A DNA stretch of 36,264 nt from Gammaproteobacteria bacterium (lineage in GTDB: Bacteria; Pseudomonadota; Gammaproteobacteria; Steroidobacterales; PWYM01): assembly GCA_020832005.1 (NCBI GenBank), contig JAFIFN010000025.1, positions 1 to 36,264 on the forward strand, read 5' to 3'. This document shows positions 3,327 to 34,863 of the stretch, piece by piece. The notes beneath the pieces are model-generated. The model saw nothing but the letters and a program-made list of their open reading frames with translations, had not been told where the DNA came from and searched no databases. A program made the translations under genes and the position numbers. Position 1 is the stretch's first letter. Every line of letters starts with the position of its first letter.

Positions 3327-3356
3327 GTTATGGCCTGCATCCAAGATGTAATTGGT
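3327..3356 (+). promoter_or_regulatory. Bipartite element GTTATG-N18-ATTGGT (site A)
   Basis: gttatg gcctgcatccaagatgta attggt, 61 nt upstream of the CMD gene start. Confidence 0.65.
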
Positions 3357-3417
3357 TGGCTGAACGTGCCGCTGGCAGTATGGCTGCTCAATCGGGTGGT
3401 TTCGCCTGGAGACTCGT

Positions 3418-4056
3418 ATGGCCCACATAAAGCCCCGGGATCGATCCGAAGTGCCGGACCTGGAAGCGCAGTTCGCACAGTTCGAGTCCATGGCCGGATT
3501 CGTACCCAACAGCCTGCTGACCATGGCCCATCACCCGCCGATCCTGCGTGGCTATATGCAGTTGGGCCACGCGGTCATGAATACCGGCACTGTCGACGCA
3601 GGACTCAAGCGTCTGGTGGCGCTTGTGGCCAGCACAGCAGCCGGTTGTCGATACTGCCAGGGTCATATGGCAACGTTTGCGGCGTTTTCAGGCAGTTCGC
3701 CTGAGGCGCTCGAGCGCGTTTGGCGCTTTGAATTCGACACAGATTTCTCGCCTGCCGAGAAGGCCGCGCTGCGCCTGGCGCGGGATGCTGCGCAAGTACC
3801 CAATGCTGTGGAAGCGGAACACTTCGTGGATCTCAGTCCGCACTTCACCGATGCGCAGATCGTAGAGCTGGTCGGTGTGATAGCCATGTTCGGATTTCTC
3901 AACCGCTGGAACGACACGATGGCAACGACACTGGAAGCCTTGCCCATGAAGGCCGCCAGCCAGGGCATCGGCAAGTCAGGTTGGACGGCCGGCAAGCATG
4001 TTGCCGAGGATTCCGCGCCGGCGGCGCCAGCAAGTCCAGACTCGAAGAGAAACTGA
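3418..4056 (+). CDS. Carboxymuconolactone decarboxylase/AhpD-like family protein
   Basis: CRYCQGH CxxC motif, AhpD-like helical context (LVALVAST..CRYCQGHMATFAA); SD ggag upstream. Confidence 0.85.
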   Translation: MAHIKPRDRSEVPDLEAQFAQFESMAGFVPNSLLTMAHHPPILRGYMQLGHAVMNTGTVDAGLKRLVALVASTAAGCRYCQGHMATFAAFSGSSPEALERVWRFEFDTDFSPAEKAALRLARDAAQVPNAVEAEHFVDLSPHFTDAQIVELVGVIAMFGFLNRWNDTMATTLEALPMKAASQGIGKSGWTAGKHVAEDSAPAAPASPDSKRN

Positions 4057-4057
4057 C

Positions 4058-5329
4058 GTGATCAAATCAGGCACGACTTCGCGGGTGTTTTACGGCTGGG
4101 TCAACGTGCTCGTGGCCGGTATCGGCCACATGACCAGCGTATCGGCACTCGTGTTCTTCACCTTTGGTGTGTTCCTGGCGCCGCTGCAGCAGGAATTCGG
4201 CTGGTCGCGCACCGCGATTTCCGCGGCGCTGATTGCCGCGGTCAGCGCGACAATCATCATGCAGCCACTGGCGGGTTACTGGAGTGACCGCATCGGGCCC
4301 AAGCGCATCATTCTTGCGTCCATCGTGGGCTTCAATATCGTCTTCGCCTCGATGTATTTCCTCACGCCCAGTATCTGGCACCTGTATCTGATGTTCGCTC
4401 TGCTGACCACAACCGGGGCAGGGACCTCGCCGATCACCTACTGCAAGGTGATCACGGAGTGGTTCACGGAGCGCCGGGGACTGGCGCTGTGCCTGAGCCT
4501 GCTCGGCGTCGGCCTGGGTGCAAGCCTGGCACCGGTACTCGCGAACACCTTGATCGAACAGTTCGGCTGGCGGATGGCTTACGTAGGACTGGCGGCGATT
4601 GGTTTCACCCTGAGCTTTCCGCTGATCGCACTGTTCCTGGTTAACGCACCGCGTGACCGGGGTATGCAGCCTTATGGTCACGATCGCCAGCTGGAGGTCA
4701 TGCCGGATAATTATGGGCTGGGTGCGGCCCAGGCCCGGCGTACCTTGAACTTCTGGGTGCTCATCATTGTTTTCCTGCTGGCCGGGGTGACCTTGAACGG
4801 CACGATGCTGCACATGGTGCCGATGCTCATCGACTCCGGCGTGTCTGCACAGACTGCGGCCATGACGGCCGGCTTGCTCGGTGTCTCGCTGATGGTAGGG
4901 CGCGTCATTGCCGGGTTGTGCCTGGACCGGTTTTTCGGGCCGCACGTGGCGCTGGTCTTCATGACTCTGCCCATCATTGGCCTGGGGATCTTTCTTGGTG
5001 ATGGCACCGGTGTGCTGGTCTATGTTGCCGCCATCAGCATCGGCCTGGCGCTTGGCGCGGAGATCGATATCGTGGCCTACTTCGTCGGACGCTATTTCGG
5101 TATCCGTGCTTACAGCCAGATCTATGGCTTCATATTTGCAGCCTTCTCGGTGGGTACCGCCACGGGGCCGATCATCATGGGTGTCGTCTACGATACCACC
5201 GGCAGTTACCAGGGTGCTCAGATCGCCTTTATCGGCATACTGCTGTTATGTTGCTTCATGCTTTCACGTCTGAGCGCCTATCCGGAGTGGGGCGTACGCG
5301 AAGACCAGACCCTCGATGCCAGGGCATGA
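4058..5329 (+). CDS. MFS transporter (monocarboxylate/OFA-like)
   Basis: GTG start at 4058, 1 nt after the previous stop; FYGWVNVLVAGIGHM, AGYWSDRIGPKRI, about 12 hydrophobic segments. The ORF track start at 3998 overlaps the upstream gene. Confidence 0.9.
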   Translation: MIKSGTTSRVFYGWVNVLVAGIGHMTSVSALVFFTFGVFLAPLQQEFGWSRTAISAALIAAVSATIIMQPLAGYWSDRIGPKRIILASIVGFNIVFASMYFLTPSIWHLYLMFALLTTTGAGTSPITYCKVITEWFTERRGLALCLSLLGVGLGASLAPVLANTLIEQFGWRMAYVGLAAIGFTLSFPLIALFLVNAPRDRGMQPYGHDRQLEVMPDNYGLGAAQARRTLNFWVLIIVFLLAGVTLNGTMLHMVPMLIDSGVSAQTAAMTAGLLGVSLMVGRVIAGLCLDRFFGPHVALVFMTLPIIGLGIFLGDGTGVLVYVAAISIGLALGAEIDIVAYFVGRYFGIRAYSQIYGFIFAAFSVGTATGPIIMGVVYDTTGSYQGAQIAFIGILLLCCFMLSRLSAYPEWGVREDQTLDARA

Positions 5330-5392
5330 GCCAGGTGCCAGTTTACGCGGGTACGCAGGCCCGGAGACGGCCGTGCCGCGGTGGCCGCTGAC

Positions 5393-8300
5393 ATGGATGT
5401 ACCAACGAAACTGCGCGAGGTAACGCTCGCCGACAAGTACACCCTGCGAAAGGGTGCGGCGCTGCTGTCGGGCACCCAGGCGCTGGTCCGGCTGCTGCTC
5501 GAGCAGCATGCGCGTGATGCCGATGCGGGCCTGAACACGGCCGGGTTCGTGAGCGGCTATCGTGGCTCACCGCTGGGCGGGTATGACCAGGCCCTGTGGG
5601 GTGCCGGGGACGCACTGGGCATGGCGAACATCGTGTTCCAGCCCGGTGTCAATGAAGACCTTGCCGCCACGGCCGTGTGGGGGACGCAGCAGGCGCCGCT
5701 GCTGCCGGGCTGTCGATATGACGGCGTATTCGCCCTGTGGTATGGCAAGGGTCCGGGCGTCGATCGCTCCGGAGACCCGATAAAGCACGGCAACCGGATG
5801 GGCACCTCCCGCCATGGCGGCGTGCTGCTGGCCGTGGGCGATGATCATCCGGGGAAGTCTTCGACCGTCGCGCACCAGAGCGAACAGGCGCTCGCGGCCA
5901 ATGGCGTACCAGTGCTGTATCCGGCGTCTGTGCAGGAGATCATCGATCTGGGCCTGCACGGCTTCGCGTTGAGCAGATTCTCCGGGCTCTGGGTGGCGCT
6001 GAAGTGCGTGAACGAGACTGTCGAGAGCACCGCGACGGTCACGCTGGCGCCGGATCGGCCAAGCATCGTGCAGCCGCCGGACATTGAACTGCCGCCCGAA
6101 GGTCTGCATGGGCGATTGGTATTCGCACCGGCCGGCGACGAGCGGCGACTGGTGCGCTACAAGCTGCCCGCGGCGCAAGCCTACGTACGGGCCAATCGAC
6201 TCGACCGTGCGGAATTTGATCATGCCGGTGGACTGGGCATCGTCACGGCGGGCAAGGCCTACAGTGATGTCATGGAGGCGCTGCGGCTGCTGGGGATAGA
6301 TCGCCAGCTCGCGCGTTCGCTGGGCGTGGATGTCTACAAGGTGGCGATGATCTGGCCACTCGAGCCGTCCGGTGTCACCGACTTCGCCCGTGGTCGCTCG
6401 CGCGTGCTGGTGGTCGAGGAAAAGGACGGCATCATCGAGCCGCAGCTCGCCCGCGCGCTGTTCAACCTGCCACACGAGCAGCGTCCGTGCCTGGTCGGCA
6501 AGCACGATGAGCATGGCGCGGTCCTGATCAGCGCCGATGAGTCGCTGGCACCGATGACGCTGGCGCACCTGGTCATCGAGCAGCTTGTGGCCATCGGCGT
6601 CGACGTGTCCGCACTGCGCGCCCGGCTGCCGGAGTCCCCGGCGGCCCTGCAGCCGCTGCCCCCGGCGGGCGTACGGGTGCCGTACTTCTGCGCCGGCTGC
6701 CCGCACAACACCTCGACGCATGTGCCCGAGGGCAGCCTGGCCATGTCCGGCATCGGCTGTCACACCATGGCGATACATATGGAGCGCGACACGCTGCCGC
6801 CCACGCACATGGGCGGCGAAGGCATGAACTGGACAGGCATCCAGCCGTTTACCGACATGCCCCATGTGTTCCAGAACCTTGGTGACGGCACCTACTTCCA
6901 CTCGGGCCTGCTGGCCATTCGCGGCGCGGTCACCGCCGGCGTGAATATCACCTACAAGCTGCTGGTCAATGACGCGGTCGCGATGACCGGAGGTCAGCCT
7001 GTGGAAGGCGGCCTTGGTATTGGCGAGATTGCCAGGCAGCTGCTCGCCGAGCGCGTGGCTCAGGTCGTGGTGGTCAGTGATGCGCCGGAGCGTCATCGCA
7101 GCGGTCTGCCGGCCGGTGTCGAGGTGTTTCACCGCGACCGGCTGATGGGGGTTCAGGCGAAGCTGCGCGACACGCCAGGCGTGACTGCGCTGATCTACGA
7201 ACAGGGCTGCGCTGCCGAAAAACGTCGGCACCGCAAGCGTGGCACGATGCCAGAGCCCGATCGTCGCGTATTCATCAATCCACTGGTCTGTGAAGGCTGT
7301 GGCGACTGCAGCGTGAAGTCCAACTGTGTCGCCGTCGAGCCCGAAGAAACTGAGCTCGGGCGGAAGCGGCGCATCGACCAGGCCGCCTGCAACAAGGACT
7401 ACAGCTGTGTGAAGGGCTTCTGTCCTTCCTTCCTGTTGATCGACGGCGGGCAACTGCGCCGCGGCACAGGTGCCCCCGGCGCGGCAGCGGGTGACGCGGC
7501 CATCCCGGAACCGCCCGTCACCGCTGAGCAGGCGCACGCCGATATCCTGCTGACCGGCGTGGGCGGGACCGGCGTGGTCACGGTCGGTGCGCTGCTGTGC
7601 ATGGCTGCGCACCTGGAGGGGCGCAGCGCCAACGTTTTCGACATGACAGGGTTGGCGCAGAAGGGCGGCGCGGTGTACAGCCATATTCGCATCGCAGCTG
7701 CCGGGGAGTCACTGGCAGCGGCACGTATTCCCGCGGGTACGGCGACGCTGGTGCTGGGCTGCGACCTGGTGGTCACAGCCAGTGATGAGGCGCTGGCCAC
7801 GGTCACTCCGGGTCTCACGCACATCGCGCTCAACATGCATCGGGTGCCTACCGCCGGGTTTCAGCGCGACCCCGACATCGATTTCGCCACCGGCCAGCTG
7901 CTCGAGCGTATCCAGGCGCGTGCGGGTGCGCAGGCGGTGGCCCAGGTCGAGGCCACGCGCGCAGCCACGCAACTCACCGGCAATGCGCTGGGCGCGAACC
8001 TGTTCCTGCTCGGTTTCGCCCTGCAGCGTGGCTGGGTGCCGGTCTCGAGCCAGGCCTTGCGTCAAGCCATCGAGCTCAACGGCGTGGCTGTCCAGGCCAA
8101 TCTGCGCGCGCTGGCGCTGGGACGACGCGCCGCACACGAGCCGGACTGGCTGGACGCGCAGCTCGGTGCACCGAGCGACGCTGCGGCGGCAGGCACGTCG
8201 GGCGATGAAGAGGCCCTGGCGCGATTGATAGAACATCGTGCGGCGTTTCTGACCGACTACCAGAACGCAGCCTATGCCCAACGCTATCGACAGCAGCTTG

Positions 8301-8869
8301 AACGCGTGCGCGAGTCCGAGCAGAAGGTATCGCCCGGCTCGGTGCAGCTGACCGATGCCGTGGCCCGCACGCTGTTCAGACTGATGGCCTACAAGGATGA
8401 GTATGAAGTTGCCAGGCTGCATCTTCATCACGAAGCCCGTGCCCGCCTCGAGGGTGAATTCGAGGGTGACTATCGTGTCCGGGTGCTGCTTGCACCCCCG
8501 CTTCTGGCGCGGCGGGATGCAGACACCGGCGAGCCGCGCAAGATCGAGTTCGGCAGCTGGATTTTCGCGGTCTTCCGCCCGCTGGCCGCGCTGAAGATTC
8601 TGCGTGGAACCTGGCTCGATCCCTTCGGCTACACCGCCGAGCGGCGTATGGAGCGCGGCCTGATTCGTCGCTTCGAGCAGACCTGCGAGCGCATCGCGGC
8701 CGGGCTGAATCCAGACACACTCCCGGTTGCCGTAGAGCTGGCCAGGCTGCCCTTCGGCATACGCGGTTTCGGTCACGTGAAGCAACGCAACCTGAGCGCG
8801 GTAGACCAGCAATGGCGGGAACTGTTGCAACGATTCGAGCCCGATCAAGGCCGCAGGGATACGCCATGA
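5393..8869 (+). CDS. Fused indolepyruvate:ferredoxin oxidoreductase-type 2-oxoacid oxidoreductase (IorA-IorB)
   Basis: GYRGSPLGGYD, Fe-S motif CEGCGDCSVKSNC, GCAAEKRRHRKRG, gamma domain TGVGGTGVVTVGALL; about 1158 aa single chain. Confidence 0.93.
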   Translation: MDVPTKLREVTLADKYTLRKGAALLSGTQALVRLLLEQHARDADAGLNTAGFVSGYRGSPLGGYDQALWGAGDALGMANIVFQPGVNEDLAATAVWGTQQAPLLPGCRYDGVFALWYGKGPGVDRSGDPIKHGNRMGTSRHGGVLLAVGDDHPGKSSTVAHQSEQALAANGVPVLYPASVQEIIDLGLHGFALSRFSGLWVALKCVNETVESTATVTLAPDRPSIVQPPDIELPPEGLHGRLVFAPAGDERRLVRYKLPAAQAYVRANRLDRAEFDHAGGLGIVTAGKAYSDVMEALRLLGIDRQLARSLGVDVYKVAMIWPLEPSGVTDFARGRSRVLVVEEKDGIIEPQLARALFNLPHEQRPCLVGKHDEHGAVLISADESLAPMTLAHLVIEQLVAIGVDVSALRARLPESPAALQPLPPAGVRVPYFCAGCPHNTSTHVPEGSLAMSGIGCHTMAIHMERDTLPPTHMGGEGMNWTGIQPFTDMPHVFQNLGDGTYFHSGLLAIRGAVTAGVNITYKLLVNDAVAMTGGQPVEGGLGIGEIARQLLAERVAQVVVVSDAPERHRSGLPAGVEVFHRDRLMGVQAKLRDTPGVTALIYEQGCAAEKRRHRKRGTMPEPDRRVFINPLVCEGCGDCSVKSNCVAVEPEETELGRKRRIDQAACNKDYSCVKGFCPSFLLIDGGQLRRGTGAPGAAAGDAAIPEPPVTAEQAHADILLTGVGGTGVVTVGALLCMAAHLEGRSANVFDMTGLAQKGGAVYSHIRIAAAGESLAAARIPAGTATLVLGCDLVVTASDEALATVTPGLTHIALNMHRVPTAGFQRDPDIDFATGQLLERIQARAGAQAVAQVEATRAATQLTGNALGANLFLLGFALQRGWVPVSSQALRQAIELNGVAVQANLRALALGRRAAHEPDWLDAQLGAPSDAAAAGTSGDEEALARLIEHRAAFLTDYQNAAYAQRYRQQLERVRESEQKVSPGSVQLTDAVARTLFRLMAYKDEYEVARLHLHHEARARLEGEFEGDYRVRVLLAPPLLARRDADTGEPRKIEFGSWIFAVFRPLAALKILRGTWLDPFGYTAERRMERGLIRRFEQTCERIAAGLNPDTLPVAVELARLPFGIRGFGHVKQRNLSAVDQQWRELLQRFEPDQGRRDTP

Positions 8870-8906
8870 CGAGGTCTGGCCGGATCACAGCGAGGCGCAA
8901 TCCCTC

Positions 8907-10661
8907 GTGAACACGCTCTACAGTGCCCCTGTGCAGGACATCATGGCAGCCCTGATGGGTGCCGGCGAATTGCAGGGCTGGCACGGTGAGCTTGCAGCCG
9001 AAGACGTCAATGGCATCCTCGATGAGGCGGGTCGTTTCGCCGGCAATGTGATCGCGCCATTGAATGCGTCGGGCGATCGGGAAGGTATCCGGGTTGTCGA
9101 TGGCCGGGTGCATTGCGCGCAGGGATTCGCCCAGGCCTGGCAGCAGTTCAGTGGCGCCGGCTGGCCCGCGCTTGCGCAGCCGTGCGCTTATGGTGGCCAT
9201 GGCATGCCGGCAACGGTGCATGCGGCTGTCGCAGAACTTTGGGCCGGCGCCAATCTGGCTTTCGCGACCTGTCCGGAGCTGGCCGTCGGTGCGGTGCTGG
9301 CGCTTGAACACCACGGGTCGGAGGCCCTCAGGCAGGCTTTTCTGCCAGGCCTGATTGACGGCAGCTTCACCGCTACGATGTGTCTGTCGGAGCCGGCGGC
9401 GGGTTCCGATCTTGGTGCCATCCGAACTACAGCGCAGCCCGCCGGGGACCACTTTCTGCTGCGTGGCAGGAAGCTGTTCATTACCTGGGGCGATCACGAC
9501 CTCACCGAGCAGATCGTACACCTGGTGCTTGCACGCCTGCCCGATGCGCCGGCCGGCAGTCGCGGTTTGTCAATGTTCCTGATGCCTGCCGTGCTGGAAG
9601 AGGGCGATTCTGCGGGCCTTCGCAACGACATCGAACTCATCGGCACCGAATCCAAGATGGGCCTGCATGCCAGCCCGACCTGTGCATTGGCGTTAGGCCC
9701 GAATCATGGCGCCGTGGCCCACCTGGTGGGTGAGCCGCATGCAGGGTTGGCCTGCATGTTCACGATGATGAACCACATGCGCCTGGGTGTCGGCGTTCAG
9801 GCCAACGGAGTGGCGGCACGTGCAACCAGCGCGGCAGCGCTCTGGGCGCAGGAACGCGTGCAGGGCCGTACGCCTGAGAACGCAGCGTCGAAGGCCATCA
9901 TCGGCCACGCGGATGTGGCCCGCATGCTTGCAGACATGCAGACGCTGACCCAGGCGGGCCGCAGCCTCGCTCTGATGGCAGCACGGCGGATCGATGAGGC
10001 CGATGCCGGCAATGCTGCCGCAGCGGCGCAGGCGGCGTTGCTGACCCCGGTGGTCAAGGCTTGGTGCAGTGATATGGCCGAGGCGGTGTGCAGCATGGCG
10101 ATCCAGATTCATGGCGGCATGGGTTACGTCGAGGAGACCGGTGTCGCACAGTTGTATCGCGACGTGCGCGTCACCTCGATCTACGAAGGCACGAACGGCA
10201 TCCAGGCGCTGGATTTCCTGCGCCGCCGGGTGCTTGCCGATGAGGGTCATGCACTGGGCAGCTTGTTCGCTGACATCGACGGCTGGCTGCAAGACCAGGG
10301 CGTGCCTGAACGATGGCGCAGCGCGGTCAGCGATGCGCTCGAAGAGCTCCGTGCCACTGCCGGGCTTGCGATCAGGGCTGTCGGGCGCGATGGCCTTGAT
10401 CCCGGCTGGATCGCCGTAGATCTGTTGCGCCAGTGTGGTGAGCTGGTGGCTGCTGCCCTGCTGGTTCGAAACGCGTGCGTCGCAGTCCAGGGCGTTGCGC
10501 AACCGCCGCACTACCAGCAGCAGCGAGCTGCCGCGCTGGCTGACTGGGGTTTGCAGCTGCTGTTGCCACGCAGCGCAGCTTACGCGAGACGTATTCGCCT
10601 GGTCTGTGAGTCGTCGGGTCAATCCGAGTCGATACGCTGGCTGACCGAAGCCCCGGCGTGA
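8907..10661 (+). CDS. Acyl-CoA dehydrogenase (long, about 584 aa, with C-terminal extension)
   Basis: GTG start; TMCLSEPAAGSDLGAIRTTA, MAIQIHGGMGYVEETGVAQLYRDVRVTSIYEGTNGIQALDFL. Confidence 0.93.
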   Translation: MNTLYSAPVQDIMAALMGAGELQGWHGELAAEDVNGILDEAGRFAGNVIAPLNASGDREGIRVVDGRVHCAQGFAQAWQQFSGAGWPALAQPCAYGGHGMPATVHAAVAELWAGANLAFATCPELAVGAVLALEHHGSEALRQAFLPGLIDGSFTATMCLSEPAAGSDLGAIRTTAQPAGDHFLLRGRKLFITWGDHDLTEQIVHLVLARLPDAPAGSRGLSMFLMPAVLEEGDSAGLRNDIELIGTESKMGLHASPTCALALGPNHGAVAHLVGEPHAGLACMFTMMNHMRLGVGVQANGVAARATSAAALWAQERVQGRTPENAASKAIIGHADVARMLADMQTLTQAGRSLALMAARRIDEADAGNAAAAAQAALLTPVVKAWCSDMAEAVCSMAIQIHGGMGYVEETGVAQLYRDVRVTSIYEGTNGIQALDFLRRRVLADEGHALGSLFADIDGWLQDQGVPERWRSAVSDALEELRATAGLAIRAVGRDGLDPGWIAVDLLRQCGELVAAALLVRNACVAVQGVAQPPHYQQQRAAALADWGLQLLLPRSAAYARRIRLVCESSGQSESIRWLTEAPA

Positions 10662-10673: not shown

Positions 10674-11414
10674 TCAGATCCAGAGTTCAAATTCGATCCG
10701 GAAGTTCGGCGAGGGCGGCTTGATGCCCTTGGGAATGAACAGTCCCTGCAGCACCGAGGTGTTGTTACCCCAGTATCTCTGAATCATCTGGCCGCGGACA
10801 TTGGCGAAGCGGCCGGTGCCGCCGACGACGGCGCGCAGGAAGCGTGGATCGGCCTGCTGGTTGTCATGCTGCAGTCCCACGACCGAAAGCATGTCGGTTG
10901 GAGTCAGGTCCTCCGCGCTGACGACACCACCGAGATAGTAGTCCGTATGCGAGAGCAGATGCGGATCGGGCCTGGGCACATAAGGTCCATCCGACTTGTT
11001 GTTGATGACCACCCAGCCGCGATCGAAGAACGTACCTATAGGCTCGCGCTCAAAGTCCCAGTTCACGTCACGCTTGTCTTTGGGCTCCGGGATCGTGCCT
11101 CCGGGGTAGATGAGACCCTCGTGATACTGCATGCTGCCGCGCAGGTCACTCTGGCGAAACCCGGCGCGAAACCGGTCATGGTCCGGATGCTGTTCGGCGT
11201 AGTCCGGATGGCGATTCCACGCACCGTCTTCGTTGTCGTAGTTCGTATGTCCCAGGACCGCGACATCGATGGTAATCACTTCGCGTCGGCTGCCCGGGGC
11301 TGTCTGCGATGACTGCGCTGACGCCGCACGTCCTGCAAGCGCGCCGGTGAGCAGGCCCATCACACCGGCCATCACACCGCGGCGTCCGAATTTCGTTTTT
11401 GCAGTCATGTTCAC
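10674..11414 (-). CDS. Allene oxide cyclase/dirigent-like barrel protein with Tat-like signal (paralogue 2)
   Basis: GRRGVMAGVMGLLTGALAGRAASA leader; VVGGTGRFANVRGQMIQRYWGNN; GTG start at 11414 or ATG at 11408. Confidence 0.6.
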   Translation of the reverse strand: MNMTAKTKFGRRGVMAGVMGLLTGALAGRAASAQSSQTAPGSRREVITIDVAVLGHTNYDNEDGAWNRHPDYAEQHPDHDRFRAGFRQSDLRGSMQYHEGLIYPGGTIPEPKDKRDVNWDFEREPIGTFFDRGWVVINNKSDGPYVPRPDPHLLSHTDYYLGGVVSAEDLTPTDMLSVVGLQHDNQQADPRFLRAVVGGTGRFANVRGQMIQRYWGNNTSVLQGLFIPKGIKPPSPNFRIEFELWI

Positions 11415-11427: not shown

Positions 11428-12081
11428 TCAGGTCAGGTGCCATAGCTCAAAGCGCAGCCGAAAGTTCGGCGACGGTGGAGATACGCCAGAGGGCAGGGCG
11501 AGCCCGCGCAGGCCCGTGCTGTTACGGCCGATGCGACGCTGTGTGACAGAGCCCTTGGCGGTGGCGAATCTGCCAGTACCGCCTGCAACCGCCCGCACGA
11601 CAATGTCGTCCGGCGGCACACCATTCTCCATGCCGGTCGTGGTCAGCATGTCCGTGGGCGTGAGGTCCTGTGCCGACACCGTTCCGCCGAGGTAATAATC
11701 GGCGAAGGACAGCAGATGCGGATCTGGCCTTGGCTCGTCCGGGCCGTCCGTACGGTTGTTGATGATCACCCAGCCGCGGCTGAAAAAGCTGCCCATGGGA
11801 GGCTGCTCGAAGCGCCAGACCACGGCGTTGTAGTCATCATCGGGCGGCTCCGGGATCGTTCCGGCAGCGTATACCAGCCCCTCGAAGTAGAACGTGGTGC
11901 CGCGAACATCACTTTGCCGGAAGCCCTCCAAGGCCTTTCCGGGAACGTCATCGCGAAAGTCAGGATGCATGTTCCAGGCGCCGCGCCGGTTGCTGTAGTT
12001 CGTGTGGCCGAGTACCGCGACATCGACCTCGACGATCTCGTGACGGGCACCTGTCGCATCGCCGTAGTTCTTATCGTTCAA
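11428..12081 (-). CDS. Allene oxide cyclase/dirigent-like barrel protein, leaderless (paralogue 3)
   Basis: EVDVAVLGHTNYSN...VAGGTGRFATAKGSV; proposed TTG start at 12081 preceded by GGAGA SD; the longer ORF (to 12168) would overlap the DoxX coding end. Confidence 0.58.
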   Translation of the reverse strand: MNDKNYGDATGARHEIVEVDVAVLGHTNYSNRRGAWNMHPDFRDDVPGKALEGFRQSDVRGTTFYFEGLVYAAGTIPEPPDDDYNAVVWRFEQPPMGSFFSRGWVIINNRTDGPDEPRPDPHLLSFADYYLGGTVSAQDLTPTDMLTTTGMENGVPPDDIVVRAVAGGTGRFATAKGSVTQRRIGRNSTGLRGLALPSGVSPPSPNFRLRFELWHLT

Positions 12082-12107
12082 TGGTAGTCTCCAGCGTGGT
12101 TGTGCAG

Positions 12108-12536
12108 TCAGAATTTCGGCGTACGTTGGGGGCGAAAGATCTCGCGAAATGCGTCTCGATATCCCCACAGAAGCACCAGGTTGAGAATCAGCACGACAAC
12201 ACCGTCGGCGATCTGGGCCTGATAGATCGTAATCAGGAAGATCACGATATTGACGGTAACGGGTGTCAGCAGTACCAGGCCAGCTACGACGAAGCGATTG
12301 CTCAGAAGCATGATGCCACCAGCAACCTGCAGCGCCTTCACAAAGGCGAAATAGCCGCCAGGAATCATCAACTCGAGAAACTCATGGCTGTTGCCAAGCG
12401 CGACAAGCTCGAAAAAGTAGTTGAGTCCGGCAAACAGGTAGAAAGCACCGACGAGAATACGCGCCGCATGCAGCACGGCAGTGCCAGTTCGTGCACGCCA
12501 GTCGATTGCTGTGCTCGCCGCGCGGATGGCGTTCAT
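12108..12536 (-). CDS. DoxX family membrane protein
   Basis: MNAIRAASTAIDW..ILVGAFYLFAGLNYFF..; four hydrophobic segments; start at ATG 12536 rather than the 13145 ORF start. Confidence 0.75.
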   Translation of the reverse strand: MNAIRAASTAIDWRARTGTAVLHAARILVGAFYLFAGLNYFFELVALGNSHEFLELMIPGGYFAFVKALQVAGGIMLLSNRFVVAGLVLLTPVTVNIVIFLITIYQAQIADGVVVLILNLVLLWGYRDAFREIFRPQRTPKF

Positions 12537-12650: not shown

Positions 12651-12665
12651 ATAACTGAGAGTTAT
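12651..12665. promoter_or_regulatory. LysR-type box ATAACT-GAG-AGTTAT between divergent DoxX and hydratase genes
   Basis: Perfect 6-3-6 palindrome, overlapping a second palindrome ACTCTCAG-ATAA-CTGAGAGT (12643-12662). Confidence 0.65.
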
Positions 12666-12704: not shown

Positions 12705-12734
12705 GTTATGCCCCCGAGCCGCGAAGATATTGGC
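12705..12734 (+). promoter_or_regulatory. Bipartite element GTTATG-N18-ATTGGC (site G)
   Basis: gttatg cccccgagccgcgaagat attggc upstream of the hydratase gene. Confidence 0.6.
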
Positions 12735-12858
12735 GGTCTGTGCTGCTGACCGGCAAGCTGTCGCCTTATGGCCGGGAAATCCAGCAAATCGTCCGTCACG
12801 GTCGCCGGCGCCATTGGCTCGCCAGGCCGGCGGGTGCTCGGAGAATTGCATTGTGCCT

Positions 12859-13714: not shown

Positions 13715-13722
13715 CCTGGCAG

Positions 13723-25189: not shown

Positions 25190-27682
25190 TCAGAAGCGGT
25201 AACGCATAGTTGCGCCGAACGTCCTGGGCCGTGTGGTAATGACCAGCGGTGCGGTCAGGCCACCGGTATCCAGTGAGTTCGTGACCCCGAAAGAATCGAA
25301 CAGATTATTGACCCAGAACTCCAGGCTGAGCTCGTCGACCAGCCGCATACCGATCCTGGCATTCACCTGATGGTAATCACCGATCTGCTCAGGCTGCAGC
25401 TGTGACACGAAGTCGCCACCCTTGGATTCCATCTTGCCGACATAGGACCAGTCGATTCGCGCGAAACTCTCACGATCAAGCAGGCGGAAGTCCAGATTAA
25501 GGCCGACGTAACCGGAAACCTCCGGTGTCAGCTCCACCTTCTGGCCCGAAGCGATGCCGGCGGGCGCAAAGTCGTCTGTATAGCGGGCACGCGTGCGGGC
25601 GAAAGCCGCGTCAACGCGCAGCCAGTCGGTCAGCAAGGCCGAAACCTCAAGCTCCACGCCGTCGATGCGCGCGTCACTCACATTGAGCAGTCCGTCCGCT
25701 TGGCAGCGGCTGGGGCCCATCGCCAGCGCCTGCAGGAATATCTGGGTCTGCAGATCACTCCAGCGGGTGTGGTAGGCGGCTGCATTGAGCTGCACTCTGC
25801 GATCGGCCAGCAGCATCTTGCTGCCGACCTCGAAGTTCCAGACGGTGTCTGCATCGGTGGGCGGCAGTCCGTCCGGGTAACCCAGGGAGGCGAGCTCTGC
25901 ACCGCACAGCTCCAACGGCAAATCCCGGTTGACCACGCCGGTGCGATAGCCCTCGGCTACTGCTGCGTAATGCGTGAATCGATCGTCGGGACTCCACGTC
26001 AAGCTGAACCGCGGCGTAAAAATGGTCTCCCGGTTATCGGCCGTGCTGTCGCTTTGCCCGGTGAACTGGAAGCCGGCATTGCGGATATCCGCCTCCTGCT
26101 TGAGTGTGAACCAGCGAAAGCTGAAAGCTGCCGTCAGCGTAGGCGTCAGGTCGTAGGCGATCTCACCGAACACCGCCGCCTGCTCATCACGGTAGTCGGC
26201 CCATTGCCGCGCCACTTCCATCGGCGGTGGGGGTGTGCCGGGCGGTTGGCGCAGCAGCGCCTCGGTAAACAGGATATTCAAGCCGCTGAGATCATCGGCC
26301 GCCAATGTGAACCCCTGATTGATGCGCTGAAAATACAAGCCGCCCAGCCACTGCAGCGGGCTGTCTGAAGTCGAGGCCAGTCGCAGTTCCTGGCTCAACG
26401 ATCTGGGGTTGTCTTCCCGCTGAACCAGCACCGGGATGGTATTGGCCACACCGGTGGTGATGAACGAGATGGCCGACAGCCCTGTCGCAAGTGATTCAGT
26501 CCGATCCCAGTAGGCGGTGGATGAGGTCAGTCGCGCGCCCTCGAAGTCATGTTCGACCACCAGATTCGCAAGCTTGAGTTCATCACCTGTGCTCGGGGTG
26601 ACCGGGTCGGCATACTGGAACGACCTGTAGTCGCTTGGCTGCGTGACAATCAGCGAAAACATCGGATTCACGGTATTGGGCACGATCACCGTGCCCGGCC
26701 GCGGCCCGGGTATATTCTCGATGGCCTCAGCCCACGCGTTACCCTTTGCTGAGCGCTCCTCGTAGGCCAGGATCAGCTCTGCCGAGGTCTGGTCGCCGAT
26801 CACCCAGTTGCTGACCAGGCGGCCGCCCTTGACGCGACTGGTGTTCACCCCGCGCTGGATATTGGGGGCTGCGGCGAAGTTGGCTGCGTCCGGATTGACC
26901 ATCAGGATCATGGGCAACAACGCACCTGGCCCTGGCGGAAACGGTGCGCCTGGTGGCGGCAGTGGCGGCGCGGTGGCGGCCAGCTCGGCCATGGTGGGTC
27001 CGCCTTCGAAAATATTGTCGTACCAGCCACCTTCCTCGGCCGTGTATACGGTCAGTCGCACACCCGCACGATTGGCAATAATCGGCAGGTTCAGCGTCAG
27101 GTCGGCGTCATAGCCGGAGCCGCCGTTGCGTGTGGACGAAGTCCCGGCGTTCAAGGCAACACCAAAGGCCTCGAGATCGGTGGAACGCGGAATCTGCTTG
27201 ATGGCGCCGCCCAGCGAGTTGGCACCGTAGAGCTGCCCCTGCGGACCGCGCAGAACCTCGATCCGCTCCATGTCTACAAGTCTTGGGTTGAAACTCGAAT
27301 TGACGTTTCGCCCGGTGTGAATGATCGGCACCTCGCCAAGGTAGATCGCGGTGGTCGGTGAGAGTGCTGCGCTACCTGATCCGACACCGCGGAATTTAAC
27401 TTCGTTGCCCAGAGTCGAGTTCTCGGCGAAAGACGCACCAGGGATGGTGCGCAGGTAGGTTGCATAATCTGTGATGCCGCGCTCTTCAAGCATGGACTGG
27501 CTCAGGGCGGTGATGGCCACCGGCACATCCTGCACCGCCTGCTCGCGCCGCTGTGCCGTGACGGTGATCTCCTCGATGGTGGTGCGCTGACTTGTCGTAC
27601 GTTGATCGGCAAGGCTGATGTCAACGCCCGCCAGGGCGAGTGAGATGCAGCTCGACAGGCACAGTGCATGTCCGTTCTTCAT
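25190..27682 (-). CDS. TonB-dependent receptor
   Basis: IEEITVTAQRREQAVQDVPVAITAL, MERIEVLRGPQGQLYGANSLGGAIKQIPR, C-terminal ...TFGATMRYRF; start ATG 27682. Confidence 0.95.
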   Translation of the reverse strand: MKNGHALCLSSCISLALAGVDISLADQRTTSQRTTIEEITVTAQRREQAVQDVPVAITALSQSMLEERGITDYATYLRTIPGASFAENSTLGNEVKFRGVGSGSAALSPTTAIYLGEVPIIHTGRNVNSSFNPRLVDMERIEVLRGPQGQLYGANSLGGAIKQIPRSTDLEAFGVALNAGTSSTRNGGSGYDADLTLNLPIIANRAGVRLTVYTAEEGGWYDNIFEGGPTMAELAATAPPLPPPGAPFPPGPGALLPMILMVNPDAANFAAAPNIQRGVNTSRVKGGRLVSNWVIGDQTSAELILAYEERSAKGNAWAEAIENIPGPRPGTVIVPNTVNPMFSLIVTQPSDYRSFQYADPVTPSTGDELKLANLVVEHDFEGARLTSSTAYWDRTESLATGLSAISFITTGVANTIPVLVQREDNPRSLSQELRLASTSDSPLQWLGGLYFQRINQGFTLAADDLSGLNILFTEALLRQPPGTPPPPMEVARQWADYRDEQAAVFGEIAYDLTPTLTAAFSFRWFTLKQEADIRNAGFQFTGQSDSTADNRETIFTPRFSLTWSPDDRFTHYAAVAEGYRTGVVNRDLPLELCGAELASLGYPDGLPPTDADTVWNFEVGSKMLLADRRVQLNAAAYHTRWSDLQTQIFLQALAMGPSRCQADGLLNVSDARIDGVELEVSALLTDWLRVDAAFARTRARYTDDFAPAGIASGQKVELTPEVSGYVGLNLDFRLLDRESFARIDWSYVGKMESKGGDFVSQLQPEQIGDYHQVNARIGMRLVDELSLEFWVNNLFDSFGVTNSLDTGGLTAPLVITTRPRTFGATMRYRF

Positions 27683-27865
27683 TCGTGTGACTCCCCACAG
27701 TAATGCGTTTTCAGGCAGGGCCCGCAAAACCCGCGTGCACCAGGGTTCTTGCAGGCATGTGATCGCCCACATCCATGCTCGCGATCTTTCCGGCAGCCGC
27801 CGATGCGTGACGGTCAGCTGCTGTCGCTTTGTTGGTCGGGATCGTGCAATAGATCGCTGATCACA

Positions 27866-27895
27866 GCCAATGCAAATTCAGACCGATCTCATAAC
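27866..27895 (-). promoter_or_regulatory. Bipartite element GTTATG-N18-ATTGGC (site F)
   Basis: On minus strand: gttatg agatcggtctgaatttgc attggc, between the SDR stop and the receptor start. Confidence 0.65.
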
Positions 27896-27945
27896 CCGTT
27901 TCGGTGGTCGATCGATTCGCTGCCACGCCAGGCGCTGCGTTCGCG

Positions 27946-28980
27946 CTATGTCGTGGCTGACGTGACTGGCGCAGGTGCAAGGTGGGACGGTGCTGTAGAT
28001 GCCGTCGCCTCGGCTGAGGCGGATGCGCGGAGTTGGTCATCATGGGCAAGAAGGAACTCGCGCATGCTGGCAGGTTCGCGTCCGGACAGGCGGACAACAG
28101 CATCGGTGACGACTGCGGCAGCTTCCGTGATGCCGCTGTTCGGTGGCGGACCAGCCGGACCCTCTGGCCCCGGCGGATCCTGGTCCAGACCTTTCGGGTC
28201 ACGTTCGACGACCTTGATTTCTCGTCCCGTGATCTCGCCAACAATCGCTGCGATATCTGCCGTGTTGACAAGCTCCGGGCCGGTAACGGTGAAGGTCTTG
28301 TTTTCGAATCTGCTACCGCCCGCCAGCGCGCCTGCGGCTGCCGCCGCGCAATCCCTGCGTGTGACCAGCGCGCTCTTTGGATCGCCGGGCCACGCGACAG
28401 CTCTTCCGGTGCGTGCCATGTGCAGCGCCTGGGCCAGTCGCATGTCGGCATAGAGGCTGTTCCGCAGGATCGTCCACTGCGTGCCACTGGCATGCAGAAA
28501 CGCTTCGCTTTGGCGGTGGGCCTCGGTGACGGGGTCGCCGCCCTTGTCGGCACCTACAAACGAGGTGTAGACGATGTGTCTGACACCGGCCTGGGTCGCT
28601 GCATCGAACGCCGCCTTATGACGCTGCGCCCTTTTGTCTGATTCACTGCCCAGTGCGAGACTGATCATGAGCATTCGCGTGCCCCCGGCGTAGGCCTGAA
28701 GCAGAGAGTCGGGCTTATCGACGTCGCCGAACGGCGTACTCGCGCCCTTCTCGGCGTACTCGGCCAACCGGTCAGGCGAGCGGCTCACCAGAATCAACTG
28801 CTGAGCCGACACACCGCGGCCAAGCAGCTCCTCGACTACCAGCCGTCCGAGCTGGCCTGAGGCACCAGACACGATGATTCTGTCTTCGGATGCACTCATG
28901 GCCATGACTCTATAAGCAACAGGGGAGAGCAGGCTCGTCATGAGCAGGCTCCGGCGTGTGAGGCGGATGGCGTCTGTCAA
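27946..28980 (-). CDS. NmrA-type NAD(P)-binding SDR with Tat-like/hydrophobic N-terminal extension
   Basis: LTRRSLLMTSLLSPVAYRVMAM then IIVSGASGQLGRLVVEELL; HIVYTSFVGAD; a start at an internal Met is possible. Confidence 0.8.
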   Translation of the reverse strand: MTDAIRLTRRSLLMTSLLSPVAYRVMAMSASEDRIIVSGASGQLGRLVVEELLGRGVSAQQLILVSRSPDRLAEYAEKGASTPFGDVDKPDSLLQAYAGGTRMLMISLALGSESDKRAQRHKAAFDAATQAGVRHIVYTSFVGADKGGDPVTEAHRQSEAFLHASGTQWTILRNSLYADMRLAQALHMARTGRAVAWPGDPKSALVTRRDCAAAAAGALAGGSRFENKTFTVTGPELVNTADIAAIVGEITGREIKVVERDPKGLDQDPPGPEGPAGPPPNSGITEAAAVVTDAVVRLSGREPASMREFLLAHDDQLRASASAEATASTAPSHLAPAPVTSATT

Positions 28981-29025
28981 GGTGAAGCTCCGCTGTGAAG
29001 TGTCAACGTGACGGCGTATGGCACA

Positions 29026-31551
29026 TTAGAAGTCCCAGCGCAGCGTCAGGCCCACCGTGCGCGGACGCACCGGGAACATGGTGGGTGCGGTGAAGCCGCC
29101 GGTATCGAGTGCCCATGTGACGCCATACTCATTGAAGAGATTATCGACCCACAGCTCCACACGCTGACGTTCACTCAGCGCCACGCTCGCGCGCAGCCCG
29201 ACGATGCTGTAGTCACCGATCTTGAACGGCTGCTCCTGGGTGACGAAATCGCCGGGCTTGCGAGGCTTCTCACCGACGTAGTTCCAGTCCACGCGGGCAT
29301 AGGCCTCGCGGCCGAAGAGATTAAAGCCGTGCTGCAGGCCAACGTAGGCGAGCCAATCCGGCGTGTTCTCAACCTTGTCGCCGGGGCTGACACGATACTG
29401 CGGGATCGCACGGGTCCAGGTCGCATCCGTGTATGACAACGACATGTCCAGGCGCAGCGTATCGGTGAGCCGTGCAGACAACTCGAGTTCGGCACCGTCG
29501 ATTTCTGCGTCGCCGACGTTGAGGATGGCGTCGCTGTTGCACTGGCTGAAGGCAGGGTTCGGTGCGAACGAAGTCATGAAAACCTGTCCCTGCACGTCCT
29601 TCCACTTGATGCGGTAGGCCGCGGCGTTCAAAGTGATCCGCCGATCCGCAATGCGCAGCTTCGCGCCGACCTCGTAGTTCCAGGTCGTGTCCTGGTCAGT
29701 GGGCTCCAGGCCGTCGGGAAAACCGGCGTTGGCCAGTTCCTGGCCGCAGATCGCCTGTGGCAGGGCGCGCGGCAGTATCCCGGTGCGAAAACCTTCAGCG
29801 ACGGTTGCGTAATACAGCTGGTCGTCAGTCGCCTGCCAGGAGAGGTTGAATCTTGGCGTGAACTTGCGATCGGTATTGCTGTCTCGCGTCGTGCCCTGCG
29901 AGAGGAACTGAAAGCCCTCGCCCGTCACGACCGATGTCTGATCGACCTTGAACCAGCGAAAGCTGAAGGCGGCGTTCAGACGTTCGGTGATGTCGTAGCT
30001 CAGTTCGCCAAACGCCGCGATCTGCTTGTCCACATACTCGGCCTGCTGGCGGGTCACGACGCGGGTGGCGGGCGCGGGACTGGTCGGCGGTGTCAGCACA
30101 ACCCGGTTCCAGTAGAGGATATCGAAGCCGCTGAGGTCGCTGCCGAGCAGCAGGAAGTCCTGGTCGATCTTCTGATAGAACAGACCGGCCAGCCAGGCGA
30201 ATCGGTTGTCAGTCTCGGAGGTCAGGCGTAGCTCCTGGATGAAGCTGCGCGGCTTGTCCTCGCGCTCGATGAGAAAGGGCACCGCATGGTTGAGACCGGT
30301 CACGAAGCGACCGATATTGGAGCCGTCATTGTTGAGCACAGTGGTGCGGTCCCAGTACGCGGTTGAAGATGTCAGGCTTGCCGCGCCCAGATCGTAGGCA
30401 AGCACGAGGTTGGCGAGGAAGATGTCATCCGCCGTGGATGAGGCGGCGGCCTCGATGTGCTCGTATCTGCGGGCACGCGAGGGGGTCATGTACGGACTCG
30501 AGGCCGCCGGGTTCATGGTGTTGGGCACCAGAAACGTGCCCGGGATCGGACCGGGAATATCAGGGATATGCTGCGTCGCGGCGCTGCCATCAACCGTCAC
30601 ATCTTCCCAGGCCAGCATGAACTCCACGTTGAGACGGTCGCTGGGCATCCATCCGAAAATGCCGCGAGCACCGGTATAGGAGCCGCTGTTGACGTCCTCC
30701 CTGCGAAGCGCCGGGGTGGCGTAGTTTGCAGCCGCAGGCTCGCGGGCCAGAATCCCCGGCGGTCCCGGCACGGTCACCGGCGGACTGACACCCGGGGGCG
30801 ACACCGTGACACGGGTCTGGGCGGGCAGCGCGCCACCTGGCTGACCGATCGGCGGGGCGAAATCGGCAAGAAAGCCCAGCGTCGGCCCGGCCGGCTTGAT
30901 GTTGTCGGCCCAGCCGGCGGTATTGCCGCCATAGACTGTCAGACGCAGGCCGGCATTGCCGTTGAACGGCAAATTCACTGTGAGATCGCCCTCGACGCCG
31001 GTCCCGCCATAGGCAATCTTCGACGTCGAAGCGCTGCCCGAGATGCCCAGCGCATCGAAGTCGGGTTGCCTTGGGATGTTCTTGATGGCGCCGCCGAGGC
31101 TGTTCGACCCGTAGAGCTGGCCCTGTGGCCCACGCAGCACCTCGATGCGCTCCATGTCGACCACGCGGAAGTTGTAGCTCGAATTGACGTTGCGACCGGT
31201 GTGGATTAGCGGCACTTCGCCGAGGTACACGGCGGTCGTCGGAGATAATTGCGCGGTGCCGGCGCCCACGCCGCGGAACTTCACTTCGTTGCCCAGACCG
31301 CTGATGTCGTAGAAGGAAGCGCCTGGTACCGTCGTGAGGTAGTTGGAGAAATCAGTGACACCCCTGGCCCGCAGCGCCGCCTCGTCGATCGCGGTCACGG
31401 CGACCGGGACCTCCTGCAAGCTCTGTTCCCGACGTTGCGCCGTGACGACGATGTCGTCGATGACGGCTGGCGCGGCGTGGGCCATGGTGCCAGGATCCGT
31501 CAGTGCTGCGGAGGCAGAAACTACCCAAGCCAGTCCTGATCTCATCCGCAT
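29026..31551 (-). CDS. TonB-dependent receptor (close paralogue of 25190-27682)
   Basis: IDDIVVTAQRREQSLQEVPVAVTAI, MERIEVLRGPQGQLYGSNSLGGAIKNIPR; SD gggggagg before ATG 31551. Confidence 0.95.
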   Translation of the reverse strand: MRMRSGLAWVVSASAALTDPGTMAHAAPAVIDDIVVTAQRREQSLQEVPVAVTAIDEAALRARGVTDFSNYLTTVPGASFYDISGLGNEVKFRGVGAGTAQLSPTTAVYLGEVPLIHTGRNVNSSYNFRVVDMERIEVLRGPQGQLYGSNSLGGAIKNIPRQPDFDALGISGSASTSKIAYGGTGVEGDLTVNLPFNGNAGLRLTVYGGNTAGWADNIKPAGPTLGFLADFAPPIGQPGGALPAQTRVTVSPPGVSPPVTVPGPPGILAREPAAANYATPALRREDVNSGSYTGARGIFGWMPSDRLNVEFMLAWEDVTVDGSAATQHIPDIPGPIPGTFLVPNTMNPAASSPYMTPSRARRYEHIEAAASSTADDIFLANLVLAYDLGAASLTSSTAYWDRTTVLNNDGSNIGRFVTGLNHAVPFLIEREDKPRSFIQELRLTSETDNRFAWLAGLFYQKIDQDFLLLGSDLSGFDILYWNRVVLTPPTSPAPATRVVTRQQAEYVDKQIAAFGELSYDITERLNAAFSFRWFKVDQTSVVTGEGFQFLSQGTTRDSNTDRKFTPRFNLSWQATDDQLYYATVAEGFRTGILPRALPQAICGQELANAGFPDGLEPTDQDTTWNYEVGAKLRIADRRITLNAAAYRIKWKDVQGQVFMTSFAPNPAFSQCNSDAILNVGDAEIDGAELELSARLTDTLRLDMSLSYTDATWTRAIPQYRVSPGDKVENTPDWLAYVGLQHGFNLFGREAYARVDWNYVGEKPRKPGDFVTQEQPFKIGDYSIVGLRASVALSERQRVELWVDNLFNEYGVTWALDTGGFTAPTMFPVRPRTVGLTLRWDF

Positions 31552-31637
31552 GTTGTATGCCTCCCCCAAGTGTAGTTTGGTAGCCTGATGCTAGGCCTTT
31601 GTATGCCGGGAATTCGATATCAGGGTGCCCTCTCAGG

Positions 31638-31667
31638 TCCAATGAAATAACGGACCGGCCACATACA
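31638..31667 (-). promoter_or_regulatory. Bipartite element TGTATG-N18-ATTGGA (site E, variant)
   Basis: On minus strand: tgtatg tggccggtccgttatttc attgga, 86 nt upstream of the receptor start; followed by a TTGGAC-N17-TATCGA promoter-like pair. Confidence 0.5.
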
Positions 31668-32684: not shown

Positions 32685-33620
32685 TCACACCGTGGCCTCG
32701 CCACGCAGGGTGGGAGTCACCGCATCAGTTGGCAATGATGCCCAGATCTCGCGGTGATCGCGTATGTAGTCCCGCATGGTCAGCGGTGGACGATCCAACA
32801 GCTGCTTAAGCGTATCGGTCATGGGCGCGTTCTTGCCGGTCCTGCTCAAAACGTAGGCGATGGTCATGAAAAACAGCACATCCAGGCCTACTCGACGACG
32901 CAGCATCCGCCACCAATAGCGCGGAAACGATGGATTGGCATAGCGAATCGGTCGGCCGAGTTCCTCAGTCATGATCTCGGCGACCTGGTAGAAATCCAGG
33001 GCCTCGGGGCCGGTGACCAGATAGGTCTGATTTCGATGCGCGGCTGGATCGCGGAGAATATTCAGCGCGGCCTCGCCGAGATCGCGGGAGTCAAGAAACG
33101 AATGCAGACCGCGACGTGCAGGAATGAATATCTCGTCATACTTGGCGATATCGACCCAGTGGGTAGAGACTACGCGCTCGAGATTCTGAGCAAAGTAGGA
33201 TGCTTGCAAAATCGTGAAGGGCACGCCTGATTCCCGTACACGCTTCTCAACGGTGTGATGTGGCACGATGGGTCGCGTGTCGGCGCCGGGTACCGAGATG
33301 TAGACGATATGACTGCATCCGGCGGCGACCGCTGCGTCCACAAACGGCACCATCCAGGTCTTGGCGGTCCTGGGATGCGGCAGCGGAAACAGCAGAAACA
33401 GAGTGGAAATGCCCTGTAGCGTCGCCGGCCAGGTGGTCTGGTCTTCGTAGTCGAATTTGACCACTGGCGCATCGTCGCCGTAGCGCTTACGGATTTTCTC
33501 GGGCGTGTGGGCCGCAATACGGTAATGCAGCGTATCCTGCTTCCGTAACAGTCCGACGAGCTCGGTACTTACGTTGCCGTTGGGACCGGTGATGACAATC
33601 ATTTGGGGGTTCCTGGACAC
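32685..33620 (-). CDS. NmrA-type NAD(P)-binding SDR
   Basis: MIVITGPNGNVSTELVGLL, HIVYISVPGAD, TILQASYFAQNL, GPEALDFYQVAEIMTEELGRPI. Confidence 0.88.
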   Translation of the reverse strand: MSRNPQMIVITGPNGNVSTELVGLLRKQDTLHYRIAAHTPEKIRKRYGDDAPVVKFDYEDQTTWPATLQGISTLFLLFPLPHPRTAKTWMVPFVDAAVAAGCSHIVYISVPGADTRPIVPHHTVEKRVRESGVPFTILQASYFAQNLERVVSTHWVDIAKYDEIFIPARRGLHSFLDSRDLGEAALNILRDPAAHRNQTYLVTGPEALDFYQVAEIMTEELGRPIRYANPSFPRYWWRMLRRRVGLDVLFFMTIAYVLSRTGKNAPMTDTLKQLLDRPPLTMRDYIRDHREIWASLPTDAVTPTLRGEATV

Positions 33621-33727
33621 GCACGGCTGACAGCAACCTCATCTTTGTCGGCGACACCTGTCTGGTCAAGGCACACTTTCATAGCTTTCCCGCACATCAC
33701 CATGAGAAATAAGCGGCGCTGGCTGCA

Positions 33728-34543
33728 TCAAGGCAAGGACACATTCGTGTCCTTGAGTATTGCGGCCGAGCGAATCACTCGACCGTCAGGCAGTTCGGTG
33801 GTGGCCTCGAAACGCACCGGTTGCCCGAGATCCGGCACCCACCAGTCCGTGCCGTGGATACGGATGCCCTCCGAGCTGACTGAACTATTGGGCGCATGCC
33901 AGGCCTCGAAGCGGCCGTAGGGCGCGTCGATGACCTGTGTGCCGGTCACATGCAGTTCGTTGTCGATGTAGCCGCCGTCGCGCCAGGTCAGACGGTTGTC
34001 GTAGGCGGTGGCCTCATGCCATTGACCTGGAATGAAGATCTGTCCGCCGTCCTCGGCAAGCCGCGGCTGACCATCCGGGCCCTGGTTGTCGGCAAAGAAG
34101 TAGACATCGCCGGTGTCACTGGTCTGGCGGAAATAGAATTTCGCCGGTCCGGCCGGCGAATCGCCGAAAATTGTCGAGGAGGGTAGCGCGGGCGCATCGG
34201 CGTCGGTGGGTTCCGGCATCTGCGATGGTGCGCCGGTCGGCGGCATGATGCGCTCTTCAAGCACGATGGCAAGCACACGTTCACCTTCGAGTTGCTCGGC
34301 TTCGATGCGAATATCCACCTCGCCGGACAGCATGACGGGCGAGGTGGATGCGCCCATGTCCATTTCCACGCTCAGCTGGTAGGTCCACTGCATGCCTGGT
34401 GACAGCATGCGCAGTTGCGTGGTGGCCGTATGCGCTTCGAGTGATGGATCGGCCAAGGGGTCGGTCTCGACAGACGGCTGGCATGCGCTGAGCGCCACGA
34501 GCAGGGCGCCAAAGGGCCACCCGCGTGCAGGAAAATTGATCAT
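33728..34543 (-). CDS. Predicted lipoprotein of unknown function
   Basis: Signal with lipobox LSAC (ALLVALSAC-QPSVE). Confidence 0.75.
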   Translation of the reverse strand: MINFPARGWPFGALLVALSACQPSVETDPLADPSLEAHTATTQLRMLSPGMQWTYQLSVEMDMGASTSPVMLSGEVDIRIEAEQLEGERVLAIVLEERIMPPTGAPSQMPEPTDADAPALPSSTIFGDSPAGPAKFYFRQTSDTGDVYFFADNQGPDGQPRLAEDGGQIFIPGQWHEATAYDNRLTWRDGGYIDNELHVTGTQVIDAPYGRFEAWHAPNSSVSSEGIRIHGTDWWVPDLGQPVRFEATTELPDGRVIRSAAILKDTNVSLP

Positions 34544-34833
34544 CAGTGCTTTGATCTCCGTAGACGCTTGTCACTAAGGGCCAGACTGATGGCCGGAACA
34601 TGATGCAGCAGCCACGATCTTGAACCGGCCTGTCGCTCAGTCAATGGGGCGAAGCACGGTGCGCTGCCTTGCCGTCGGGGTCAGCGCCTTGCCACGGTCT
34701 TGCGCGGATGGCTTGCGCAGCTGCGACCGAGTCATGTGCAAGCGGCTGGCGGGGCATGGATTTCAGCGTTCTCGGCATGCCAATGTCGATGTGGGCGGTT
34801 TCGGCGCCACGCACGCACGAGGGATAAAATTAA

Positions 34834-34863
34834 GTTATGTAGTGGGCTGAATAGTTCATTGGT
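34834..34863 (+). promoter_or_regulatory. Bipartite element GTTATG-N18-ATTGGT (site D), overlapping a LysR-like box ATAAAATTAAGTTAT (34824-34838)
   Basis: gttatg tagtgggctgaatagttc attggt; upstream of the CoA-ligase gene; followed by TTGGTG-N17-ATAGAT. Confidence 0.65.

Follow-up and report, generated by a model that had tools for sequence, protein, structure and literature searches.

The 36,264-nt contig JAFIFN010000025.1 of a gammaproteobacterium of the order Steroidobacterales (hereafter the window) carries, in front of most of its transcription units, the bipartite element GTTATG-N18-ATTGG, which raises the question of whether operons scattered over both strands are held together by one regulatory site and, if so, which protein reads it. 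A reading made from the sequence alone had proposed a single regulon, possibly under the LysR protein encoded in the window. Our analysis supports that proposal: neither of the two outcomes named beforehand as counting against it, an element equally common inside unrelated coding regions or one not conserved upstream of orthologous genes, was observed. We consider it highly probable (about 0.86) that the element is the regulatory site of a LysR-type transcriptional regulator (LTTR), and that the binder, which we infer to be this LysR protein, would autoregulate its own gene and activate a catabolic regulon contained in one contig.

Copies, spacing and rarity of the element

A pattern search of both strands of the window found five exact copies of the element and two variants with the same spacing (Table 1), as the sequence-only reading had counted. 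All seven are intergenic, in a window of which gene models take up about 92% (summed by hand), and each is oriented toward the next gene, again as claimed. The positions previously given for them also held, except that the element is 29 nt rather than 30 nt long and the ranges had been one base too long. About 0.006 exact copies would be expected on both strands, and among all 6-N(10..25)-5 gapped words in the window the element ranks first in over-representation by a wide margin (log10 Poisson -13.3, the next word reaching -5.6). The best words in 40 dinucleotide shuffles of the window had a median of -6.7 on the same scale, but one shuffle reached -12.4, so that the post-hoc search by itself is only modestly significant and tests elsewhere are called for.

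The suggested genome scan for GTTATGN(18)ATTGG is one of the independent tests that settle the matter. In the whole assembly (4.18 Mb in 278 contigs, the window being contig 166 in its entirety), the exact element occurs solely as the five window copies, and the reversed-pattern control had none. With one mismatch allowed, the genome yielded site B and 14 copies outside the window, the control count likewise being 14. In DNA of the gene clusters, the 18-nt spacer gave 12 exact and 24 near matches, whereas any other spacer from 8 to 30 nt gave at most 1 and 2, respectively. The element in the window is real and not a product of chance, because it is confined to one contig, recurs at orthologous promoters and uses a single spacer. 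Any regulon members lying past the contig end, which truncates the CoA ligase gene, would be missed if unassembled, the assembly being in fragments.

Table 1. Positions of element copies, dyads and genes in the window
Feature	Position	Strand	Remarks
Site A, exact	3327-3355	+	91 nt upstream of the start (3418) of the CMD-MFS-indolepyruvate oxidoreductase-acyl-CoA dehydrogenase operon
Site G, exact	12705-12733	+	upstream of hydratase gene, open reading frame (ORF) 12740-13714
Site B, ATTTG variant, one mismatch	13723-13751	+	94 nt upstream of NicX-like gene (13817)
Site C, exact	18425-18453	+	upstream of DapA-like gene
Site F, exact	27867-27895	-	123 nt upstream of TonB receptor 2 (27772)
Site E, TGTATG variant, two mismatches	31639-31667	-	98 nt upstream of TonB receptor 3 (31569)
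Site D, exact	34834-34862	+	130 nt upstream of benzoate-CoA-ligase-like gene (34964)
Perfect dyad ATAAC-N5-GTTAT	135-149		upstream of TonB receptor 1 (270); the genome has just one other
Perfect dyad ATAAC-N5-GTTAT	12651-12665		between divergent genes 11428-12168(-) and hydratase (+); second of the two
Putative LTTR box ATAACTTCTAATTAT	22049-22063		between the divergent lysR and fadJ genes; matches the dyad at 9 of 10 positions
LysR-type regulator, PcaQ-like, proposed binder	21107-22009	-	HTH_1 and LysR_substrate
Proposed target operon A	3418-10661	+	CMD-family protein, MFS transporter, indolepyruvate ferredoxin oxidoreductase-like, acyl-CoA dehydrogenase
Proposed targets G and B	12740-18383	+	hydratase; NicX-like dioxygenase, alpha/beta hydrolase, CurA-like reductase, protein of unknown family, quinone-oxidoreductase-like
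Proposed target C	18485-21062	+	DapA-like aldolase, acyl-CoA dehydrogenase, YdhR-like protein
fadJ-like and FAH-family genes	22171-25136	+	divergent from lysR
Proposed targets F and E	25190-31569	-	TonB receptors 2 and 3, NmrA-family gene between
Proposed target D	34964-36264	+	benzoate-CoA-ligase-like gene, cut off by contig end

Occurrence beside lysR orthologues in other genomes

In 116 other genomes of the order, the exact pattern is at background (roughly 80 matches against about 72 for the control, tallied by hand), which rules out a general promoter element. The NicX cluster is missing from all four congeners (G001-G004), three of which also lack any copy of the element. Sites resembling site A, in G042 and G110, were judged to be chance; they lie downstream of a gene whose translation reads as transaldolase-like.

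Two genomes from a further draw of the order, G298 and G377, carry the same gene cluster (NicX-like protein 73% and LysR 65-68% identical). The element is found upstream of NicX, the CoA ligase gene and a TonB receptor gene in G298, and upstream of NicX and a TonB receptor gene in G377, where the only two genome-wide matches, with one mismatch allowed, both fall inside the cluster. One more exact copy in G298, at 34489, is within an indolepyruvate oxidoreductase gene and has a low full-matrix score; we took it for a chance occurrence in coding sequence.

A NicX-alignment scan of the genome collection gave 80 loci, the best 80 of hundreds of relatives, which split into window-type clusters and a different type, with 73 loci, that has no such LysR. 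The window-type clusters contain genes for the hydratase, NicX, an alpha/beta hydrolase, CurA, QOR (quinone oxidoreductase), an acyl-CoA dehydrogenase and LysR. Upstream of NicX, the element was found in Rhodospirillaceae bin98, Erythrobacter sp. WG and a Sphingomonadales metagenome-assembled genome, and a counterpart of site B stands upstream of NicX in five other genomes. In Variovorax sp. J22P271 (G400) the element precedes the DapA-like gene, a placement like that of site C which is seen in two other genomes in all. The expected conservation upstream of orthologous genes was thus found for the NicX-like, DapA-like, CoA ligase and TonB receptor genes. In each of the nine window-type genomes a LysR orthologue reaches 50% identity or more, and lysR is present in every genome having the sites; for example, two of the three exact copies in G400 are less than 8 kb from the lysR orthologue, and in G396 the element sites share contigs with lysR genes. 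By comparison, 1.16 Mb of lysR-less NicX loci contained no exact copy at spacer 18. NicX clusters on rhizobial plasmids (54%) belong to a different type and yielded no convincing element.

The matrix that had also been suggested, for which we used only the seven window sites, scored at least 12 at the NicX promoter in 5 of the 8 other clusters and at none of 73 controls (Fisher p 2e-6). On these comparisons, retention of the element extends over three classes, Gamma-, Alpha- and Betaproteobacteria, in related clusters of genomes that encode an orthologue of this LysR.

The dyad and the candidate regulator

We aligned 25 sites, the 7 of the window and 18 from elsewhere. The latter were gathered with the previously proposed pattern, one mismatch allowed, so that conservation within both boxes is in part a consequence of the selection; no such dependence affects the dyad half, the spacer test, the perfect-dyad search or the window-only matrix. 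At columns -9 to -5 the alignment has a degenerate ATAAC, in the exact position of a dyad partner to GTTAT at columns 1 to 5, and the dyad-offset peak is the highest outside the motif itself. The resulting ATAAC-N5-GTTAT, 15 bp long, has the T-N11-A form by which an LTTR box is recognised, with a left half that is degenerate at many sites. Judged from the alignment, GTTATG is the conserved, strong right half of a predicted 15-bp LysR-type box; the sequence-only reading had overlooked the dyad, of which it saw just this one half. In addition, that reading had assigned -10-like hexamers to sites D and E only, yet a weak -10-like signal is shared across the 25 sites at columns 50-56, 21-22 nt beyond ATTGG. 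With this fixed distance, the box would be centred near -65 and ATTGG would occupy about -36 to -32, a layout consistent with the classical arrangement of a recognition site and an activation site.

A search of nine genomes for perfect dyads gave 10 places after strand pairs were merged, 8 of which are beside this cluster or a lysR gene. Specifically, there are two in the window's own genome, both in the window, one each in the clusters of G298 and G397, three in G396, all on contigs carrying element sites, and one in G399, directly upstream of a LysR paralogue; the genome search found none in G398 and G400. The dyads on contig C88 of G377, between cysM-like and pseudouridine-synthase-like genes, and on contig C51 of G401 adjoin no such LysR and are chance or unexplained. 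The lysR promoters themselves have near-perfect dyads in the window, G377 and G396 and a weaker one in G298 (8-9 of 10 positions over the four), and the G396 paralogue has a 10/10 dyad upstream. Such a distribution of dyads, at lysR as well as cluster promoters, is what one would expect if an LTTR controlled its own gene along with its pathway. The box between lysR and fadJ is likely autoregulatory for lysR. For the two perfect dyads of the window, a role in binding or repression is possible, more so than one in activation.

The LysR protein has an N-terminal HTH_1 and a LysR_substrate match, both far above the gathering score, and is the sole transcription factor recognised in the window. Its best NCBIfam match is TIGR02424 (PcaQ), at 165.5 bits, below the equivalog cut-off of 303.8. 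The recognition helix QPALSKS is shared by the paralogue and by the lysR orthologues, that of Variovorax differing in a single S-to-T substitution.

Several observations do not sit easily with an LTTR site read by this protein. The left half is poor at several window sites, the two perfect dyads of the window have no ATTGG, and the lysR/fadJ box has an imperfect one. A clear dyad is missing from the lysR promoters of G398, G399 and G400, and G397 and G401 have a lysR orthologue yet no recognisable element at the NicX promoter. Moreover, the sites on contig C15 of G400 adjoin a different LysR, of 34% identity, suggesting that boxes of this type may be read by more than one LTTR.

It is improbable, in our estimation, that the element is instead bound by another regulator encoded elsewhere, for example one of the AraC/XylS type making direct contacts about two helical turns apart, and that lysR merely travels along. 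The two boxes have such a separation, a box next to -35 also fits AraC/XylS activators, and some sites have no clear left half; against this, ATAAC stands in dyad register, perfect or near-perfect dyads occur at several lysR promoters, and every genome with sites has lysR, no second regulator being recognised in the window. Even less credible is the idea that GTTATG is a -35 box and ATTGG a -10 box for an alternative sigma factor: the invariant 18-nt spacer and constant orientation look promoter-like, but the upstream ATAAC half and the dyads without ATTGG at lysR promoters are left unexplained, the weak -10-like signal sits 21-22 nt further downstream, and no sigma factor gene was recognised in the window. 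That the copies are chance or repeat-derived and were noticed post hoc can be regarded as already refuted by their confinement to one contig in 4.18 Mb, their orthologous placement elsewhere and their unique spacer, in spite of the one shuffle in 40 with a nearly as extreme gapped word and the background counts in other genomes of the order.

Similar boxes were observed beside other LysR genes. On contig 15 of G400 (L194: 9287, 10324), two very similar divergent sites flank the gene of the 34% LysR and are upstream of genes whose translations read as a Bug-type solute receptor and a TauD dioxygenase. Contig 35 of G396 (L191: 4505, 6264, 12265, 12298, 15026, 16081) carries another cluster, which encodes a LysR paralogue of 39% identity and is rich in such sites; these are found upstream of a Rieske-dioxygenase-like gene (from its translation) and a TonB receptor gene. 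In Sinorhizobium meliloti and S. fredii, an ATAAC-N5-GTTA box is present just past a gene for a 33%-identical LysR (L225 3410, L226 3411); these Sinorhizobium boxes suggest that the 15-bp box may be common to this LysR branch.

Proposed regulon and comparison with known systems

The NicX-like dioxygenase (13817-14863, +) matches the 2,5-dihydroxypyridine dioxygenase 7cn3 (E 2e-53), with no obvious pyridine genes in the cluster. Its relatives number in the hundreds, the best 80 being 60-73% identical and from several phyla, which suggests that they may form a broad uncharacterised ring-cleavage family. No protocatechuate dioxygenase gene was recognised in the window, which speaks against regulation of a pca pathway; NicX-like, DapA-like, CoA ligase and other enzymes are present instead. 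The true start of the hydratase ORF probably lies further downstream than annotated.

Three paralogous proteins of about 245 amino acids (2491-3225, +; 10674-11414, -; 11428-12168, -), 52-80% identical, have no Pfam or NCBIfam match and no confidently predicted fold (pLDDT 36). Two of them begin with an RRxx signal-like segment, and relatives are found in a Sphingomonadales cluster of the same type. Their GGTGRFA..G motif recalls allene-oxide-cyclase/dirigent barrels. Two NmrA-family reductases (27949-28980, -; 32688-33620, -) are found with the TonB receptors, and together with the dirigent-like proteins they hint at phenylpropanoid dimers as possible substrates.

In the general anatomy of LTTRs, a palindromic T-N11-A primary site near -65 is accompanied by a secondary site reaching -35, and the tetramer shifts upon inducer binding (PMC4834489, PMC11739112). 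PcaQ of Sinorhizobium/Agrobacterium has the box ATAACC-N4-GGTTAT, and the PcaQ-type PA2206 has the 15-bp box ATTGCCTGGGGTTAT (PMC3557286, PMC5002191); PcaQ-type relatives read GGTTAT half-sites (PMC3557286). The proposed regulon of the window resembles these systems in the LTTR branch (by profile), in the GGTTAT half-site and in the predicted position of the box, which is near -65 for PcaQ and next to -35 for PA2206, and PcaQ also in aromatic catabolism. However, the conserved ATTGG 18 nt downstream is a feature of this regulon, the PcaQ dyad is 16 bp rather than 15 bp and the left half is often degenerate here, and the window has a LysR below the equivalog cut-off and enzymes other than the pca set. 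As regards promoters that have both a primary and a conserved secondary site in common, the nearest counterpart is the ThnR regulon of tetralin degradation, in which several promoters of one catabolic cluster have a primary site centred at -64 and a secondary site unlike it, the latter being needed at the PB promoter for independent activation (PMC4834489). ThnR differs in requiring the co-activator ThnY and in having a conserved ATTTC at -49 to -45, whereas ATTGG would lie at about -36 to -32 here. BenM/CatM-type LTTRs likewise place a tetramer over a recognition site and an activation site near -35, but their solved chains are only distant matches to the LysR of the window. BenM/CatM half-sites also differ from those of this regulon.

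The sites, their spacing, the dyad and the co-occurrence with a lysR orthologue are direct observations, from which we infer binding, an inducer, activation rather than repression and the transcription starts. In the circuit that we propose, a LysR dimer would occupy the 15-bp box as recognition site, and a tetramer would span this site and an activation site, WWKKN-ATTGG, overlapping -35. On binding a pathway intermediate, LysR would shift onto ATTGG and recruit RNA polymerase at each operon of the cluster, and the dyad in its own promoter region would provide autoregulation. The regulon would comprise neighbouring operons for the breakdown of a ring-shaped compound. This is a familiar type of bacterial control circuit, a well-made example rather than a new kind, in which the activation box is unusually well conserved; the strictness of ATTGG and of its spacing and the retention in three proteobacterial classes are the striking points. 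We only tentatively suggest, and hold it to be rather doubtful, that the activation site is as strict as the recognition half-site at fixed spacing, that half-site plus ATTGG forms the effective operator, and that it serves an undescribed NicX-like ring-cleavage pathway in Gamma-, Alpha- and Betaproteobacteria.

The LTTR reading would join scattered operons, three TonB receptors and one LTTR into a single testable regulon for an uncharacterised catabolic pathway, and the motif can serve to locate this pathway in further genomes. As a rule, the activation sites of LTTRs show little conservation, and a regulon with a strict activation box at a fixed distance would be a useful model for how LTTR tetramers gain access to RNA polymerase.

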